A stretch of DNA of 33,174 nucleotides from Acaryochloridaceae cyanobacterium RU_4_10 (GTDB lineage Bacteria > Cyanobacteriota > Cyanobacteriia > Thermosynechococcales > Thermosynechococcaceae): contig JAAURS010000008.1 of NCBI GenBank assembly GCA_012032135.1, forward strand, positions 1 to 33,174, in the 5' to 3' direction. The notes beneath the pieces were generated by a model. The model saw only the letters and a list, made by a program, of their open reading frames with translations. It was not told where the DNA came from and searched no databases. Of the stretch, positions 6,493 through 19,791 are shown piece after piece. How positions within the stretch are numbered: position 1 is the first letter of the stretch; every line of letters begins with the position of its first letter. A program made the translations under genes and the position numbers.

Positions 6493-6708
6493 ATGTATAC
6501 CTTGTTTCGCCTGCTCCCGGCAAAACGGTTAGTTGCTGAACAGGTTCCGGCGTTGGCCCTCGCGTGGATCGTCGCAGAGTTGTTTTTCAAATTTCACAGC
6601 TTCACCTTGGAATGCGGCGCATTCTTAGCAACTTGGTTCGTACTTGATGCGCTGACTCAGAGGCTGGTGATTCCGCTAACCAAGTGTCCTCGGAAACCAG
6701 TACGCTAG
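6493..6708 (+). CDS. small hypothetical membrane protein (71 aa)
   Basis: ORF with upstream GGAAGGA (about 6481-6487) and hydrophobic segments. Confidence 0.5.
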   Translation: MYTLFRLLPAKRLVAEQVPALALAWIVAELFFKFHSFTLECGAFLATWFVLDALTQRLVIPLTKCPRKPVR

Positions 6709-6755: not shown

Positions 6756-7743
6756 GTGAAATTCTTGTTTGACATCCTTCTCAAATTCCTCAAGGGGATC
6801 GCTTACGACTGGATCGTCGCGCTGATCGGTGTCATCAAACTCTTCCATGAATGGTTCAAGAAGCTCTTCCGACCCAAGCCGCCGCATTCGGACACCAACG
6901 CCACGAACACTGGTTGCGCCACGGTTGACCACCCCTCGTTCCATCGCCCCGACCCTCTCATCTACTCGCAGCAGTACCTCCTCAGCCTTGGGTTGGCTGT
7001 CACATGGGACAACCCGGACATCTCGCTCTTTCGGAACGGCGTCCAGGTCCCTGAGGGCGAGCTCCTACCCAACACCGAGTACGAGATCCGTGCGACCATC
7101 TGGAACAATTCGTACGACGCTCCAATCGTCAGTATGCCCGTCGATTTCTCCTTCATGAGTTTCGGCGTCACCACCTTCACTACACCGATTGGTTCTACCG
7201 TCGTAGACCTCGGCGTAAAGGGTGGTTCTCAACATCCCGCTATTGCGAGCGTGCCCTGGATTACACCGCCCGTCGGTCACTACTGCATCATCGTCGAGTT
7301 CAAGTGGGCGGACGACGCCAATCCCAACAATAACGTTGGGCAGAACAACACCAACGTCGTTACCGCGAGTTCGCCAGCGACGTTCACATTTACGGTTCGT
7401 AACCAGGAAGAAAAGGAGCGCGCCTACCGCATCGAGGCTGACACATACACTTTGCCTGAGCGCGACGATTGTTCCGAAATCGCAACGGACCGAAGGGACA
7501 ATGTCCAGAAGTGGAAGGAACTCCAAGTCCAGCATAACCGCGCTAGCCATCCCGTCCCCTCCCGGTTGGACCGTCGACTTCAATCCCCTCGCGGTCACCC
7601 TCGCTCCAGACCAAGAAGCAGTCATCAACGTCGCCATCACGCCACCGAACAATTTCACCGGACAAAAAGCCTTCAACGTTCACGCCGTCACTGAAAGTGG
7701 TGTATACGCTGGAGGCGTGACCATCTACGTAACCAAAGCATAG
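6756..7743 (+). CDS. CARDB/Ig-like domain protein with hydrophobic N-terminus; frameshifted near 7556-7559
   Basis: GTG start; N-terminal MKFLFDILLKFLKGIAYDWIVALIGVIKLF; CARDB-like LLPNTEYEIRATIWNNSYDAP and HYCIIVEFKWADDANPNNNVGQNN; C-terminal PPGWTVDFNPLAVTLAPDQEAVINVAITPPNNFTGQKAFNVHAV lies in the +1 frame. Removing one C from CCCC 7556-7559 gives a continuous 328-aa ORF. Confidence 0.75.
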
Positions 7744-7745
7744 CC

Positions 7746-8774
7746 ATGGCCTTCAAGAAATACACTACCTGCATCGAACCGGAGAACTACACGATCGACT
7801 TTGGCACCCACCTCGCTGGCTATGCGCAACTCGTCCTGATGGTGCTCACCATTGGTTTTGTTGCGTTTGCCGTCATCACCATCGCCGGGGGGCCAGTCGC
7901 GATTGTGGCCGCTCTCGCATTCCTTACTGCCTGGATCTCTGTCCTGCTCTGGTATTTGCACGGTCGGCTCGTGTGTCTTGGAGATCCTGACGGTAAGACT
8001 TGCGCGATCATCGGCATGGTCAAGAGTCATGGCCAATCTGACCCGTCTTGGGGCGAGAAGTACGGCGACGACGACTACACAATGAACATCTGGCTCGCTC
8101 CCGGACCAATCACCGAAAACGAGAAAGAGTCCGACTATTGGGAGCCACCGCAGGGCCATCTCGTCGCTGAGAACCAGAAGATCCTGAACATCAACAAGCA
8201 CTATGGCGATCGCAAGTACGTGAAGTATCTGCACTGTGAATTCGAGGGCAGTGGCATCTACGATCGGCTCCAAGCGCTCTACGGTATCGTCGCAACCCTG
8301 CTCCTCGCGCTTGCTATCCCAGGTTTTTGGATCGTCTCCATCATCTTGGGGCTACTGCTGATCTTTGGCAAAGGCATCTTTGGCTCAAAGGGTCAGTCGG
8401 GCTCGGGCACTCCTCTCGACGTCGGCGTGAACCCTGGTTCGCTCGATGGCGGTGCCATTGTGGTCGTCACCGGCAGTTGGATCTACGACTCTGGCCACGC
8501 TGGTTGGAACGAGATCCACCCCGTCACCGCTTGCCAGGTGATCGGCTACATGCCCGAGGGCGGTTGGAGCGCATTTACTTTCACGGATAAAGCGACGGGC
8601 CTCGTCTTCACGCTCGACACGCCGGACAACGTCAATCGCCTTCGCGACTTTTGGTGCGGGATACTGAAGGGGGCGACTGATGCGGAAGACGGCGGCAGCC
8701 GCAACAACCCTGTGAACGACTGGGTCATCCACCCGGCAGTGGACGGGTGTAATCCTCCGCCGATCGTTCTGTAA
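7746..8774 (+). CDS. hypothetical membrane protein with unrecognised C-terminal domain (342 aa)
   Basis: Starts 3 nt after the preceding stop; hydrophobic regions at about aa 24-70 and 184-208; C-terminal GAIVVVTGSWIYDSGHAGWNEIHPVTACQVIGYMPEGGW has no family I recognise. Confidence 0.8.
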   Translation: MAFKKYTTCIEPENYTIDFGTHLAGYAQLVLMVLTIGFVAFAVITIAGGPVAIVAALAFLTAWISVLLWYLHGRLVCLGDPDGKTCAIIGMVKSHGQSDPSWGEKYGDDDYTMNIWLAPGPITENEKESDYWEPPQGHLVAENQKILNINKHYGDRKYVKYLHCEFEGSGIYDRLQALYGIVATLLLALAIPGFWIVSIILGLLLIFGKGIFGSKGQSGSGTPLDVGVNPGSLDGGAIVVVTGSWIYDSGHAGWNEIHPVTACQVIGYMPEGGWSAFTFTDKATGLVFTLDTPDNVNRLRDFWCGILKGATDAEDGGSRNNPVNDWVIHPAVDGCNPPPIVL

Positions 8775-9158
8775 TAACAAGTAAAGAGGAGTAACCTCTC
8801 GGACCTGTACTGCTAACCACTCATTGGTCATTCCCGTCTGCGTTGCCAACGTTCGAGAGAAGCTCCAATAGCTCTTTTGGCTAAGTCCTATCAAAATCGC
8901 ATGACTTCGAGACGGTCCCAGTTTTAGTAGGTTGCGATGTGCGTCCTCGGTCTGCACCATGGCTTCTAATAACACATCCGTACTCGTCACCACAGCCATC
9001 CATCTAATTCTGGAGGCTTGAAGGGCTGCCCCTAAACCTCTTTCCCAAAAACTTGCTCAGCGATCGCCGTTAAAGTGAGTTCTGCTACCTCAATGACAGC
9101 CACGATCTCAAATTAAGTTTAAATTCGAGTAAAGGGGCAATTGTTTCCGCTCCCCGTC

Positions 9159-10377: not shown

Positions 10378-11188
10378 CTACGCTTTTCCTTTCAAAAACC
10401 GATCGAGGAAGCTTAAGGTCATAGCCCAAGCCTCAGTGGATGCATCGGCATTATAACTGTCGCGACGATCGCTGAAGAAGCCATGTCCTGCTTTGGGAAA
10501 TACGTTCAGAGAGTACCGTTTCTTAGCTTGAGAAAGCGCTAAGGCAATCTTCTGATGTTCTTCGGCTGAGATAGATTTATCCTCAGCACCATAGATGAGC
10601 ATGATTGGAGCATTCATTTTGCTGACTTGGTCCAGCAAATTTGTCCGACCGAGGGGATCTGGCATAGTAGCAATTCCACTCCCGTAAAATGCGATCGCGG
10701 CTTTCACTTGGCTCGCATGAGCTGCATTGGCGAGGAAAGTCAGACGTCCCCCCATACAGAAGCCCATCACCCCAACGCCGTCTTTTTGAGTTCGGGTTGC
10801 CGAGACAAGAACTCAATCCCCTTCCCGACCTCTGCCATTGCCACATCGTCTTTAATGGTTTTGAGCTTTGCGATCGCCCCATTGCGATCGGTATAGGCAA
10901 AGAGGGCACCATGATAGAAATCTGGTGCTAGTGCGGCATAGCCTGCTTGGGTGAGGCGATCGCAAACGCTTTTGATATAGTCATTTAAGCCAAAGGCTTC
11001 CATGATGACAATAACGGCAGGGAAGGGGCCATTTCCATTGGGTTTGACGTAGTAGCCAGAGAGCCCCTTGTCAAGCTGAACGGTTTTCCCCTTGGCGGTC
11101 ATGGCCGTTGTTTTGGGGTTGCACGAGCGCCTGCAACCATCGTGACCGTTAATGCTGATGAAGCCAGCAGTACATCGCGTCGTTTCAT
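10378..11188 (-). CDS. dienelactone hydrolase family protein with Arg-Arg-type N-terminal signal; two 1-nt frameshifts
   Basis: MKRRDVLLASSALTVTMVAGARATPK start at 11188; GFCMGGRLTFLA nucleophile motif; PKAGHGFFSD. One extra base in each of G4 11115-11118 and T5 10783-10787 gives a continuous 270-aa ORF. Confidence 0.88.
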
Positions 11189-11268
11189 TTAACTTCACAC
11201 CTTAAATATTTAGCTTTGATTAGTCTAACGAATTGTTTGGTTCGGAATGTTCGCCAAAATCTTGCTCC

Positions 11269-14854: not shown

Positions 14855-14962
14855 ATCAACCTCAAGCAAACTGTAGGGATATTAAACTCACTCCCCTTGC
14901 CAGAAATTCTTCCGGCGATCGCATAGCCGCAAAACTATTACACAAGAAGTGTTAACTCTAAG

Positions 14963-14994
14963 ATTGTAAAGAAAGGAAATGAAGATTCTGTGAG
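14963..14994 (-). promoter_or_regulatory. tandem-repeat operator M5: CTCACAGAATC TTCATTTCCTT TCTT TACAAT (minus strand)
   Basis: Two 11-bp repeats plus TAnnnT, oriented toward the universal stress protein gene. Confidence 0.6.
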
Positions 14995-14996
14995 GA

Positions 14997-15370
14997 TTAC
15001 CAGTCCAGAATTTCAGAAATTCGATCGGCAAGGGTTAAGGGATCGAAGGGTTTGGTTAGGATTCCTGCAAGCTCCGACTGTTCGGACTGGCCATAACCTG
15101 TAGGCTGCACTTTAGCTGTCAACAAAATGACAGGAATATCGGAAGTTTCAGAATTTTCTTTCAGCTTTTTAAGAACAGTAAATCCGTCCATCTCGGGCAT
15201 CATTAAGTCCAAAAGGATGGCGTCGGGCTTTTCTGCTGCGGCTTGGCGCAATCCATCGGCGCTGGTATTAGCAATGAATACGGTCCAATTCGCTAACTGG
15301 CTGAGGCTCACTTGAATGACCAGGCTAATGCTTTTTCGTCATCGATCAGTAAAATCTGCTTGCTGGACAT
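14997..15370 (-). CDS. response regulator, receiver domain only; 1-nt frameshift at 15323-15324
   Basis: N-terminus MSSKQILLIDDEKALA in one frame, then VIQVSLSQLANW...PDAILLDLMMPEMDGFTVLKKLK...ILTKPFDP; one extra G at GG 15323-15324 gives a continuous 124-aa ORF. Confidence 0.88.
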
Positions 15371-15378
15371 AAAAACAC

Positions 15379-17221
15379 CTATACTATCGGCAATGTGAAG
15401 TAAAACGTACTGCCCTCTCCTTCAATACTTTCAACCCAAATTTGTCCGCCGTGTTGCTGCGCAATGGCACGACAAATCGCTAAGCCTAACCCAGTGCCGC
15501 CTTTCTGACGGGCATCCGAACTGTCAACCTGTTGAAAGCGTCCAAAAATTGCTTCTCGTTTGTTGGCGGGAATTCCCCGTCCCCGATCTTGAATTTGAAA
15601 TATGATTTGCCCTCCCAGATTTTGGACCTTCAGGGTAATAGGACTTTTAGGGGGCGAAAATTTAATTGCATTACTCAAGAGATTGATGAGGACCTGAACG
15701 ATCCGATCTGGGTCGGCCCAGATTTCGATCGTATTAGGAATAAGGGTTATCGCAATATTGTTCTCTTCTGCAAGGGATTGTAAAGATCGAGTTGCTTGTT
15801 GAATTAAGTCGGCCACATTACATTGTTGCTTCTCTAACGGTAATTTACGGGCTTCTAGACGGTCTAGGGAAAGGATATCATTGACCAGCCGTACGAGCCG
15901 ATCGGATTCGATTGCAGCAATCCTGAGCATCTGTCTTGATGATTCTGGATTGGTGTCAAGGGCTCCGGCGGCAAGAAGTCCCAAGGAGCCACGAATGGAC
16001 GCAAGGGGCGTTCTGAGTTCGTGGCTCACGATGGAAATGAAATCACTTTTTACCTGTTCTGCAATTCGATGTTCGTTAATATCTTGAATTTGGCTCACAA
16101 AATAGAGCGGTTCGCCTTGGAAACCGCGCACTAAGGAAGTGCTACCCATAACCCATAGAGGATATCCAAGCTTGTGTAAATAGCGTCGCTCCGTTTGGAT
16201 GCTCTGCACCTCTCCCAGGATTAGCCGATTTAAGTTATTGCGATACGTTTCTCGATCGGTTTCATCGGTTACTTCATCTAAGGTCAGCCCCAGTAATTCT
16301 GTTTCGGTGTAACCCAATAAACCGCACAGAGCGGGATTGACTCTCAAAAAATGACGGTCGAGTCCGACGAGCGCTAAACCGTTTACGGCAAAGGTGAAGG
16401 CATTCCGAAATAGTTCTTCGCTTTGCAACAGTGCGAATTGAGCGCGTTTACGATCGCTCAGCTCCAGTTGCAATTGGGTATTAGCTTGGCTCAACTCACT
16501 GGTGCGTTGGATAACGCGGGTTTCCAGTTGCTGGTTTGATTGTTTCAGCGTTTCTTCGGTGCGCTTTCGATCGCTAATATCTCGAATCAACCAGTGGATG
16601 CTGGCAATCGCCTTGCTATTGAGATCGTATCTTGCGGAAATTGCGATCGAAGCGGGGAAGGGTTGCCCTTCCCTGGGGTTGGAGTTGCGTTTCCCAATCT
16701 TGAATGAGATGATTCCCGAGCATACAATATCCATCTCGAGCGTTGTCTAACACATCGGAACACCGAGCAGAGTTTACCATCTCCGCCAATTGCTCCAGTT
16801 GGGTTCTAAAAAATGTGCGTCTGGCTGGAGGCGCAAAGACAGCAAGGGGGTTGCCCACCAGTAAATCGCGATGCAGTTTCAATAGAGCTTCCGACGCACA
16901 GTTTGCTTCTTGAATGATGCCTTTGGCATCGGTGACCAGGTATGCGTCGGGGGCTAGCTCAAATAAGGCTTGGTAGTGCTGGCGCTTTGTTTCTAAGTCT
17001 TGGCGCGTTGCTAGCAATTCCGTACTTTGCTGGGACAACTCCTCAGCCGTGGCCTGCAATGCTTCCAAAGTGTTGCTCATCTCTGCGATTGCATCTGCCG
17101 ATAAGTCCTGAGATGGGATCGACGGATTTTTGAGAGAATGTCGCAGTCCATCTAAACGCTTTTGAATGCGTTGTAGTCGTTCAAAGTCCGATGCTCCAAT
17201 CTCTCTCTGATAGAATGTCAT
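15379..17221 (-). CDS. PAS-domain sensor histidine kinase; 1-nt frameshift near 16671-16673
   Basis: PAS motifs, SHELRTPLASIRGSLGLL H-box, LINLLSNAIKFSP N-box, GTGLGLAICRAIAQQHGG G-box. Removing one C at 16671-16673 joins WETQLQPQ to EGQPFPASIAISARYD (613 aa). Confidence 0.92.
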
Positions 17222-17324
17222 GGCTCAATCGTTTCCTTCGTCGTTGATAACCACTGACGCTAAAGATCGTTAATATCGTTAATTTAGATTCTTCTGCTGT
17301 GCATTGTTTCTTAGGATATGTCTC

Positions 17325-17356
17325 AATATTGCAAATCTTTGTGAGTAAAATATGAA
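17325..17356 (-). promoter_or_regulatory. tandem-repeat operator M6: TTCATATTTTA CTCACAAAGAT TTGC AATATT (minus strand)
   Basis: Two 11-bp repeats upstream of the histidine kinase gene; -10 off-consensus. Confidence 0.45.
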
Positions 17357-17517
17357 GGTGTATCTTTCCAAAGCTATATATGCTGGCGATTGAATATGCC
17401 TGAGCCTTCATGTCCTCAATAATGGGTCACTACCTAGGTTAAGCTTTATGCCACACGGTGTCTTTCTCTGTGCTGAAGTTGTTAGGATCGAAACGACTAG
17501 AGCTTTGGAGGTGCTTT

Positions 17518-18024
17518 ATGAATCGCACTCTAGTAGCAGTACTTAATGGAACTAGAGCAAGGTTTTTAATTTTAGAGCCTGTCGATTTTCCTGAGTCCGA
17601 AGCGGGACCAAACCTCATCGAACAGGAAGCGCTGATTAACGAAGAGAATGAGCTGCTGGGCCAAGATTTGTGGGCCAGTTCAAAAACAGGCCGCAACCGT
17701 GGCTCCGGCGGTCAAAGCCATAGCTATGATGACCATCGAGACAATCATTTAGTAGAATTCGGCCAGCGGTTTTCGCACAGCATCGTTTCTCGGATTCAAG
17801 AACTCATTGAGTCCCATCAAATCCGCCAGGTGCTGATCGTGTCCGAACCTCAGATGCTGGGGATATTGCGCGAACCTCTGAGCGCAAAAATTGGCAAAAC
17901 CGTGACAATTAGTGAACTGGGTAAGGATCTTTGTCAACTTTCTGCCCATGACTTACACGAGTATTTAGCCAGTAAGAAACTGCTTCCATCTCGCCAAGAC
18001 TTGCGCGTTTTGCCGAATTCCTAA
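17518..18024 (+). CDS. host attachment protein / bacterial eRF1-like (baeRF) domain protein
   Basis: RTLVAVLNGTRARFLIL start, ...RQVLIVSEPQMLGILREPLSAKIGKTV...ELGKDLCQLSAHDLHEYL; ORF track start 17458. Confidence 0.75.
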   Translation: MNRTLVAVLNGTRARFLILEPVDFPESEAGPNLIEQEALINEENELLGQDLWASSKTGRNRGSGGQSHSYDDHRDNHLVEFGQRFSHSIVSRIQELIESHQIRQVLIVSEPQMLGILREPLSAKIGKTVTISELGKDLCQLSAHDLHEYLASKKLLPSRQDLRVLPNS

Positions 18025-18116
18025 AGTTGCTTGGGACATCGTGGAAGAGTTGCAAGCAGAAGCGGCTCGCCGCAGAGCGGCAGCAAAACTCGACCCATAA
18101 AACTGCGGCCATGTCC

Positions 18117-18148
18117 CTCATAAGTTCCTCATTTTTGCAGCGTATAAC
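18117..18148 (+). promoter_or_regulatory. tandem-repeat operator M7: CTCATAAGTTC CTCATTTTTGC AGCG TATAAC
   Basis: Two 11-bp repeats; 50 nt upstream of the 18199 start. Confidence 0.55.
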
Positions 18149-18198
18149 CAAGTCAAAGGGCGCTAACTCATACAGCCTTGACGCATGAGGAACGCATT

Positions 18199-19791
18199 AT
18201 GGAAACCTTTGACTACATCATTTTAGGTGCTGGTCTCGGCGGTCTCTCTGCCGCAGCCTGCTTGACCCAGCAAGGCCACCGAGTTGCTGTTCTGGAAAAA
18301 CACTACCTTCCGGGCGGATGTTGCCATACCTTCGACTATGGCGATTATCGTTTTTGCGCGGATGTGCATTACATTTCTCAATGCGCTCCCGGTCAGACCA
18401 TTCAACAATTCTTGAGCTACATCGATCGCGACGTTCCGTTCAATCGCTTGGACCCAGACTGCATCGATCGCATTATTTCTCCAGGAATCGACTTTCAGAT
18501 ACCGCTAGGGTGGCATAATTTGCGATCGCGGTTGCTGGAAGCGTTCCCTCAGGAGTCTGCTGCGATTAATCACTACTGCGATGAAATTGAGCGCATCCAT
18601 CGAGAAATTAAAGGTTTGGTTGAAGAAGTTCATTGGTATTCGCGGCAATGGAGCGATTGGCTCAAGCTACCTAAATATTTGCATTTATTCCAAAGACGCG
18701 ACTGGACGCTCCAAACGCTCTATGACGCGGCTGGACTGTTCCCTCAGTTGCAGACCATTTTGGCCGGACAAAGTGGAGATTACGCTCTACCGCCTAACGA
18801 AATTGCCCTGATTACTCACGCCTCGCTGGTTTGGGATTATTCAGAGGGAGCCTACTACCCCAAATATCATTTCAAACACTTTGTGGATACCATTGTTGAG
18901 GCGATCGAAGCAGGCGGAGGAGTCGTTCATCTCTCCACACCCGTCGAACATATTGAAGTCGAAGATCGAGAAGTTCAGTATGTATTGGCTGGAGGAAAGC
19001 ACTACAAAGCGCGAAAAGCATACATCAGCGATCTCGATCCGAAGCTCTCGGTTCAATTGATGCACAATACAACAGCTTTGAGCCATCCAGAACACCAACG
19101 ACTCACCAATTACGAATATTCTACTAGCGCTTTCAACCTTTACCTAGGGCTAGACAGCCGATTCAACCCCGAAGACTACGGCATTGGGAGTTGGAACATC
19201 TGGTACTATCCCAATGGCGATCTCAACACGGCTTACCAGCAACAGTTCTCTGGGACACTAGAACATCCGTGGATTTTCCTCTCTTGCCCGACGATGAAAT
19301 CCCACGAACTTGGCATGGCACCTTCGGGACATCACGTCCTAGAAATTGCCACGGTTTGTTCCTACGAACCGTTTAAGACGTTGCGCGATCGCGATCCAAA
19401 AGCCTACAAGGCGAAAAAGCGCGAGATGTACCAACAGATTATGGCCAGCGTCCGAGATCTCATTCCAGACGTTAATACTTACGTGCGGATGAAGGTCCCT
19501 GGGACACCTACCACCAGCGAGTTTTATTTAGGACAGCCGCAAGGTAACATCTATGGCGCTAAATTAGTGCCGCAGCAAGTTGGCCTAAATCGCTTGGGGT
19601 ATAGAACTGAGTTGCCTAACTTTTTTTTGGTGGGTGCAAGTGCCGGATATCCCAGCGTGCCAGGGGTAATTGGTAATGGTATGGATGTGGCGGAGTTAAT
19701 CTCAGGGAAAACGGTTTGGAGGGCGACCCAAGGAGATCGAGCTGCCCATAGAGATACTCCATCGGCACTCAACCAACCCACCACCGTATGA
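18199..19791 (+). CDS. FAD-dependent oxidoreductase, phytoene desaturase / carotenoid isomerase / retinol saturase-like
   Basis: Dinucleotide-binding motif DYIILGAGLGGLSAAACLTQQGHRVAVLEKHYLPGGCCHTF; C-terminal NFFLVGASAGYPSVPGVIGNGMDVAELI. Confidence 0.9.
   Translation: METFDYIILGAGLGGLSAAACLTQQGHRVAVLEKHYLPGGCCHTFDYGDYRFCADVHYISQCAPGQTIQQFLSYIDRDVPFNRLDPDCIDRIISPGIDFQIPLGWHNLRSRLLEAFPQESAAINHYCDEIERIHREIKGLVEEVHWYSRQWSDWLKLPKYLHLFQRRDWTLQTLYDAAGLFPQLQTILAGQSGDYALPPNEIALITHASLVWDYSEGAYYPKYHFKHFVDTIVEAIEAGGGVVHLSTPVEHIEVEDREVQYVLAGGKHYKARKAYISDLDPKLSVQLMHNTTALSHPEHQRLTNYEYSTSAFNLYLGLDSRFNPEDYGIGSWNIWYYPNGDLNTAYQQQFSGTLEHPWIFLSCPTMKSHELGMAPSGHHVLEIATVCSYEPFKTLRDRDPKAYKAKKREMYQQIMASVRDLIPDVNTYVRMKVPGTPTTSEFYLGQPQGNIYGAKLVPQQVGLNRLGYRTELPNFFLVGASAGYPSVPGVIGNGMDVAELISGKTVWRATQGDRAAHRDTPSALNQPTTV

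Follow-up and report, generated by a model that had tools for sequence, protein, structure and literature searches.

The window, that is the whole stretch of 33,174 nucleotides analyzed here, corresponds to contig C298. The assembly it belongs to is fragmented, with 442 contigs and a completeness of 77%. The window carries two tightly packed genes, hereafter P1 and P2, which are preceded by a small open reading frame (ORF) and followed by the remnant of a reverse-transcriptase gene. Coordinates, strands and properties of these features are as follows:

6493–6708, forward strand: small ORF with a single transmembrane segment (71 aa, segment at aa 13–31), located directly before P1, where other loci carry a microprotein gene
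6756–7559, forward strand: 5' part of P1, GTG start; predicted N-terminal membrane-binding helix and first Ig-like domain; 75% identical to P1 of Bradyrhizobium lablabi
7556–7562, forward strand: 1-bp insertion (frameshift) in P1; GTCCCCTCCCGG against GTGCCC-CCGGA in B. lablabi (L002)
7561–7743, forward strand: 3' part of P1 in the shifted frame; predicted C-terminal Ig-like (NEW3/fn3_5-like) domain; 70% identical to P1 of B. lablabi
7746–8774, forward strand: P2, polytopic membrane protein of 342 aa, ATG start; open and intact frame
7830–7952, forward strand: first transmembrane hairpin of P2 (aa 29–69), from hydropathy
7959–8270, forward strand: soluble segment of P2 with DxD (D108, D110) and LHCEFEG (H163, E165), invariant in 19 relatives
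8274–8378, forward strand: second hydrophobic hairpin of P2, apparently inserted in the soluble domain; from hydropathy and a gap that opens when soluble relatives are aligned globally
8457–8546, forward strand: P2 signature GxWxYDxxHxGWNEIHP (G243, D248, E256 and H258 invariant; hhalign probability 96.6)
8721–8750, forward strand: terminal P2 motif WVIHPxVDGC (H329 and P330 invariant; W326, D333, G334 and C335 conserved in at least 90%)
8814–9014, reverse strand: truncated reverse-transcriptase relic, putatively of group II intron type; 82% identical to a same-genus sequence (G001:C105), 40 bp past the P2 stop

The sequence-only reading had overlooked the small ORF at 6493–6708 and the reverse-transcriptase relic, and had described P1 as a single ORF at 6756–7743. 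However, this span of 988 nt is not divisible by three, and two frames had been joined silently. From its GTG start at 6756 the first frame ends at a stop at 7694, while the Ig-like tail quoted at the time (GWTVDFNPLAV...HAV) sits in another frame (ORF 7222–7743). The distance given between both genes was correct, with the P1 stop codon TAG at 7741–7743 and the P2 start codon ATG at 7746. An intact P1 homolog of 331 aa is found in B. lablabi SZCCT0009 (L002). With this and other copies in frame, we judged a programmed frameshift to be unlikely. The frameshift may instead reflect true decay or an assembly error, the latter because splits also affect two further genes of the window.

The DNA of the window is marked as cyanobacterial by its HIP1 octamers (42 in 33 kb, on average 1.27 per kb) and by the kinship of a GH15 gene to same-genus genomes. 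This gene lies about 0.6 kb upstream of the small ORF and its product is 80% identical to that of the same-genus genome G001. Cyanobacterial DNA flanks the module on both sides, as the GH15 gene upstream and, 40 bp beyond P2, as the reverse-transcriptase relic downstream. The relic was typed from its sequence, without a database match, and its intact homolog is a 454-aa ORF in G001 (L126:425–1789). When four genomes (G001, G003, G007 and G002) were compared at the site, the GH15 gene was the sole shared gene and a clean empty site could not be demonstrated. Elsewhere in the window, a dienelactone hydrolase gene (10378–11198, reverse strand) is split by a further frameshift into two overlapping frames covering profile positions 2–94 and 102–216, and a PAS histidine kinase gene (15379–17221, reverse strand) is apparently split into two overlapping frames. 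No Rfam family was detected in the window and no promoter-like site between 5850 and 9100.

Gene linkage and a small third gene

Among 249 relatives of the alphaproteobacterial genome G378, P2 matches were obtained in 22 genomes and P1 matches in 21, the latter count without three weak matches that cover just the Ig-like end. In every one of these 21 genomes P2 follows directly downstream of P1 on the same strand, in agreement with the co-occurrence for which the sequence-only reading had suggested a gene-neighborhood check. The gap between both matches measures 11–35 bp in 20 of the 21, while in G360 the ORFs abut or overlap. The P2 proteins of this group comprise four subfamilies, namely A in 5 genomes, B in 6, C in 9, where a 450-aa form occurs, and D in G360, and the pair from the window and B. 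lablabi forms a group beside them. Synteny is stable within subfamilies, while the chromosomal sites differ between them. Shared descent alone could keep such genes together in the absence of any joint function. However, that four divergent subfamilies sit at different chromosomal sites and yet all keep the genes adjacent argues otherwise.

Two genomes deserve separate mention. In G792, the 22nd genome with a P2 match, a broken and frameshifted P2 without P1 (L042:7100–8100) occupies the syntenic site of subfamily A; here, the module has been lost by decay. The most divergent module is that of G360 (L052:7871–10276, reverse strand), which comprises microprotein, P1 and P2. Its P1 contains an extra hydrophobic stretch in the second half and its P2 reads NEIHD in place of NEIHP.

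The microprotein is encoded by an unannotated ORF of 42–50 aa that lies upstream of P1 in 21 of 21 genomes, across all four divergent subfamilies, at a distance of 16–156 bp in the loci measured. It follows the pattern MDFIExxFGxSPDxGxG[S/T]xE, with one transmembrane segment and a K/R-rich tail, and gave no significant match in Pfam and NCBIfam. Since substitutions fall mostly on third codon positions (mean dN 0.03–0.07, dS 0.27–0.96), it is a real gene under purifying selection. The small ORF at 6493–6708 of the window shows no recognizable homology to this MDFIE microprotein. It does resemble the ORF upstream of P1 in B. lablabi, with 31 of 48 aligned residues identical and an alignment score that was not reached in 500 shuffles. 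Thus, because a small transmembrane gene precedes P1 in all 21 alphaproteobacterial genomes and another one does so in the window and in B. lablabi, what had been proposed as a two-gene system is rather a module of three genes, and its conservation is hardly in doubt. Candidates for a conserved fourth gene were discarded: an upstream ORF of subfamily C (f10) looks spurious, while DUF992, ChaC and ABC-transporter genes accompany the module in particular subfamilies only.

Architecture of P1 and P2

P2 contains the two hydrophobic regions that had been noted before (hydrophobic stretches at aa 29–69 and 189–207) as well as the C-terminal motifs quoted for it. That its C-terminal domain resisted assignment still holds, as searches of Pfam, NCBIfam, PHROGs, PADLOC and the PDB gave no significant match to a curated family. 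Across nineteen P2 relatives the residues R74, D108, D110, H163, E165, G243, D248, E256, H258, H329 and P330 are invariant. Between the window and B. lablabi, dN and dS are 0.13 and 1.23 for P2 and 0.15 and 1.24 for P1, which shows purifying selection on both. An AlphaFold model of P2 calculated from the two-sequence alignment of window and B. lablabi reached a pLDDT of 38 and is unusable.

More can be learned from soluble proteins that share the P2 domain. Three of them (L008:829–1668; L007:704–1474; L122:1342–2406, reverse strand), which belong to no curated family, occur in another class of the same phylum. They carry the motifs DGDxxxD, HCE and GRWxxDxFHxGWxEIHP in the same order as P2, but lack the transmembrane hairpin inside the domain. 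Comparison of P2 with these relatives by hhalign gave a local probability of 96.6 over 40 columns. The global alignment gaps out the hairpin, although an alignment of this kind is forced to span. No relative of P1 was found with its profile in L007 or L008, and a PDB sequence search with a soluble relative returned nothing significant. We infer that P2 contains one domain that is split by a membrane hairpin, and the order of its motifs suggests that this domain is possibly OB-like.

For P1, a CARDB-like domain followed by a C-terminal Ig-like domain had been proposed, and the matches favor the latter. The sole match exceeding a Pfam cut-off is that of fn3_5 (PF06280), obtained with B. lablabi P1 only (E 6e-7; 30.5 bits against a cut-off of 27.6). 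Matches to NEW3/NPCBM_assoc (PF10633) stay below the cut-off of 24.4 bits (E 1e-4 to 6e-4; 20.5–22.5 bits), as does the one of the 3' part of P1 from the window (E 1.3e-4). For CARDB (PF07705) the match is sub-threshold, with E 0.043 in one member and 14.5 bits against a cut-off of 22.7. Thus, the likeness to the Ig-like families NPCBM_assoc/NEW3, fn3_5 and CARDB consists of weak to just-significant matches to the C-terminal beta-sandwich of P1, whereas its first domain has no convincing match to any of them. P1 further differs from proteins of these families by its membrane-binding helix, its fixed partner P2 and the lack of an attached glycosidase or peptidase.

The AlphaFold model of B. lablabi P1 comprises a helix (residues 2–40) and two beta domains at a mean pLDDT of 52, with part of the C-terminal strand-rich region at about 75–80. 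K/R clusters come after the N-terminal helix, which is amphipathic, and no clear export signal or signal peptide was seen in the sequence. A PDB sequence search with P1 found nothing significant. The Foldseek matches of P1 (RbmA, ciliary Ig-domain proteins and a transglutaminase) were set aside, with TM-scores of at most 0.27 relative to the query. The best of them, the biofilm scaffold RbmA of Vibrio cholerae, shares tandem beta-sandwich (Fn3) domains with P1. However, a TM-score of 0.24 on a model of pLDDT 52 is not evidence of kinship.

Composition, distribution and origin

The GC-rich codon style of both genes, which the sequence-only reading had set apart from that of the neighbors, was confirmed by a comparison within the window: GC3 reaches 0.72–0.73 for P2 and the long P1 part and 0.62 for the short 3' part, while the other window genes tested range from 0.37 to 0.61. 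P2 and the long P1 part are also the only tested genes of the window that prefer a Bradyrhizobium codon model over the window's own. Foreign composition is thus directly supported.

The closest relative of P2 is found in B. lablabi as well (81% identity), while no relative of P1 or P2 was detected in 96 near genomes, including those of the same genus. Among approximately 385 further genomes of the phylum there was none either, the one exception being a short motif found in two genomes that belong to another class. The gene is rare on the proteobacterial side, too; among 299 genomes around B. lablabi it occurs in B. lablabi itself and in the distant G378 only. Phage, plasmid (tblastn) and viral-contig records yielded no homologs. 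A DNA-pattern scan of viral contigs for GWNEIHP matched unrelated proteins only.

Because of the atypical composition, the closest relatives in a distant phylum and the absence from near relatives, the module in the window seems to be horizontally acquired, as had been proposed from the sequence. One argument that had accompanied this proposal was rejected. The pair indeed contains a single HIP1 octamer (GCGATCGC, at 8206), but about 2.6–3 would be expected at the window mean (Poisson P about 0.2–0.3), and a larger gap between octamers exists elsewhere in the window (14915–18522). One octamer against about three expected is not a significant depletion and thus no sign of transfer. With a dS of about 1.2, the copies of the window and B. 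lablabi do not go back to a recent direct transfer from one to the other; both may stem from a third lineage.

The cyanobacterial copy might be an inert relic that is already decaying and plays no role in its host. The frameshift in P1, the adjoining reverse-transcriptase relic and the absence of the module from same-genus genomes fit such a fate, which we regard as a serious possibility, albeit not the favored one. However, the frame of P2 is open throughout and P1 is conserved in both its parts at a dN/dS of about 0.1, so that any decay would have to be recent, and the other split genes of the contig make an assembly error plausible. This question concerns the copy in the window and not the module as a whole.

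Working model and competing explanations

At a probability of roughly 55%, we favor the following reading: the window contains a frameshifted copy, obtained by horizontal transfer, of a conserved accessory membrane module with three genes, the products of which form an inner-membrane complex with a ligand- or metal-binding P2 domain that serves in sensing or catalysis. Made together from tightly packed genes, the three products would assemble into a single complex, with the small single-pass protein and P2 as its membrane part. P1 would lie on the membrane, where its two Ig-like beta-sandwich domains could act as a scaffold or as a ligand-binding arm. The D/H/E/C-rich domain of P2, with its DxD, HxE, DxxHxGWxEIHP and IHPxxDGC motifs, would be the ligand- or metal-binding part, devoted to sensing or catalysis. 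We consider a physical complex of microprotein, P1 and P2 to be probable. On somewhat weaker grounds, namely charge patterns (K/R flanks) and the fact that no clear export signal was seen, the soluble domains of P2, and probably those of P1, are expected to face the cytoplasm. Given the patchy occurrence of the module and its decay in certain lineages, our best guess is that it serves an optional stress or protection function.

The main functional rival is a defense or conflict system directed against phages or plasmids. In such a system, P2 and the microprotein would exert their effect on the membrane, with P1 as sensor or scaffold. About 2 kb separate the B. lablabi copy from a complete Lamassu locus (LmuA, LmuC, LmuB; L006:2796–6228), and a patchy distribution that crosses phyla, together with the decay in G792, would fit this idea. 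However, P1 and P2 are not parts of Lamassu, PADLOC gave no match for P1 and P2 of three subfamilies, and Lamassu was not recognized near the other loci examined. There, the module lies among ordinary genes (MFS, TPR, DUF992, UbiE/UbiB-type, ABC transporter, ChaC, LysR), and the lone PADLOC match, of an HTH protein to a Csa3-type regulator model, was read as a general regulator. Furthermore, the stable synteny within subfamilies is unlike the shuffling of a typical defense island. Defense thus appears unlikely.

Equally unlikely is a role at the cell surface, although a joint envelope or surface function had been suggested earlier. P1 would then be exported, its Ig-like domains serving adhesion or periplasmic scaffolding, with P2 as membrane anchor. 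Ig-like, Fn3, NEW3 and CARDB domains are commonly extracellular, and the weak structural similarity to RbmA points in the same direction. However, that similarity carries the low score given above, P1 starts with an amphipathic helix and K/R clusters instead of a clear signal peptide, and conserved cysteines are kept in both P1 and P2. As the charge patterns suggest that the soluble parts of P2, and probably those of P1, face the cytoplasm, this suggestion is not supported. An assembly chimera, with alphaproteobacterial DNA misjoined into a cyanobacterial contig, might be invoked for a high-GC insert in a fragmented, metagenome-type assembly, but it is very improbable, as cyanobacterial DNA on both sides would require two junctions and a GC3 of 0.72, midway between the host and Bradyrhizobium (0.85), is what an older transfer predicts.

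The preferred reading, an accessory membrane module of three genes, also bears on novelty. The earlier claim of an undescribed system held up: P2 and the microprotein gave no match to a curated family of the libraries searched, and in the literature searched we found no paper on the module or on the motifs of both proteins. Surely, both are present in databases as hypothetical proteins. In our judgement, the module is not a member or variant of any known kind of system that we found; its newness rests on exclusion and not on demonstrated function, and this function could still prove ordinary. The chances appear evenly balanced that it constitutes a three-component membrane machine, built from a microprotein of the MDFIE family (42–50 aa), a tandem Ig-like protein and a hairpin-split polytopic protein with D/H/E motifs, of which a variant with a different small protein has spread among a high-GC donor lineage, Bradyrhizobium and a cyanobacterium.

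For experimental work, the P2 residues D108/D110, H163/E165 and D248/H251/E256/H258 as well as the MDFIE microprotein offer themselves as test points. As B. lablabi and other alphaproteobacteria carry intact copies, such tests do not depend on the cyanobacterium. Provided that the module is real, bacterial cell biology would gain a new family of small membrane proteins and a membrane protein with a split domain.
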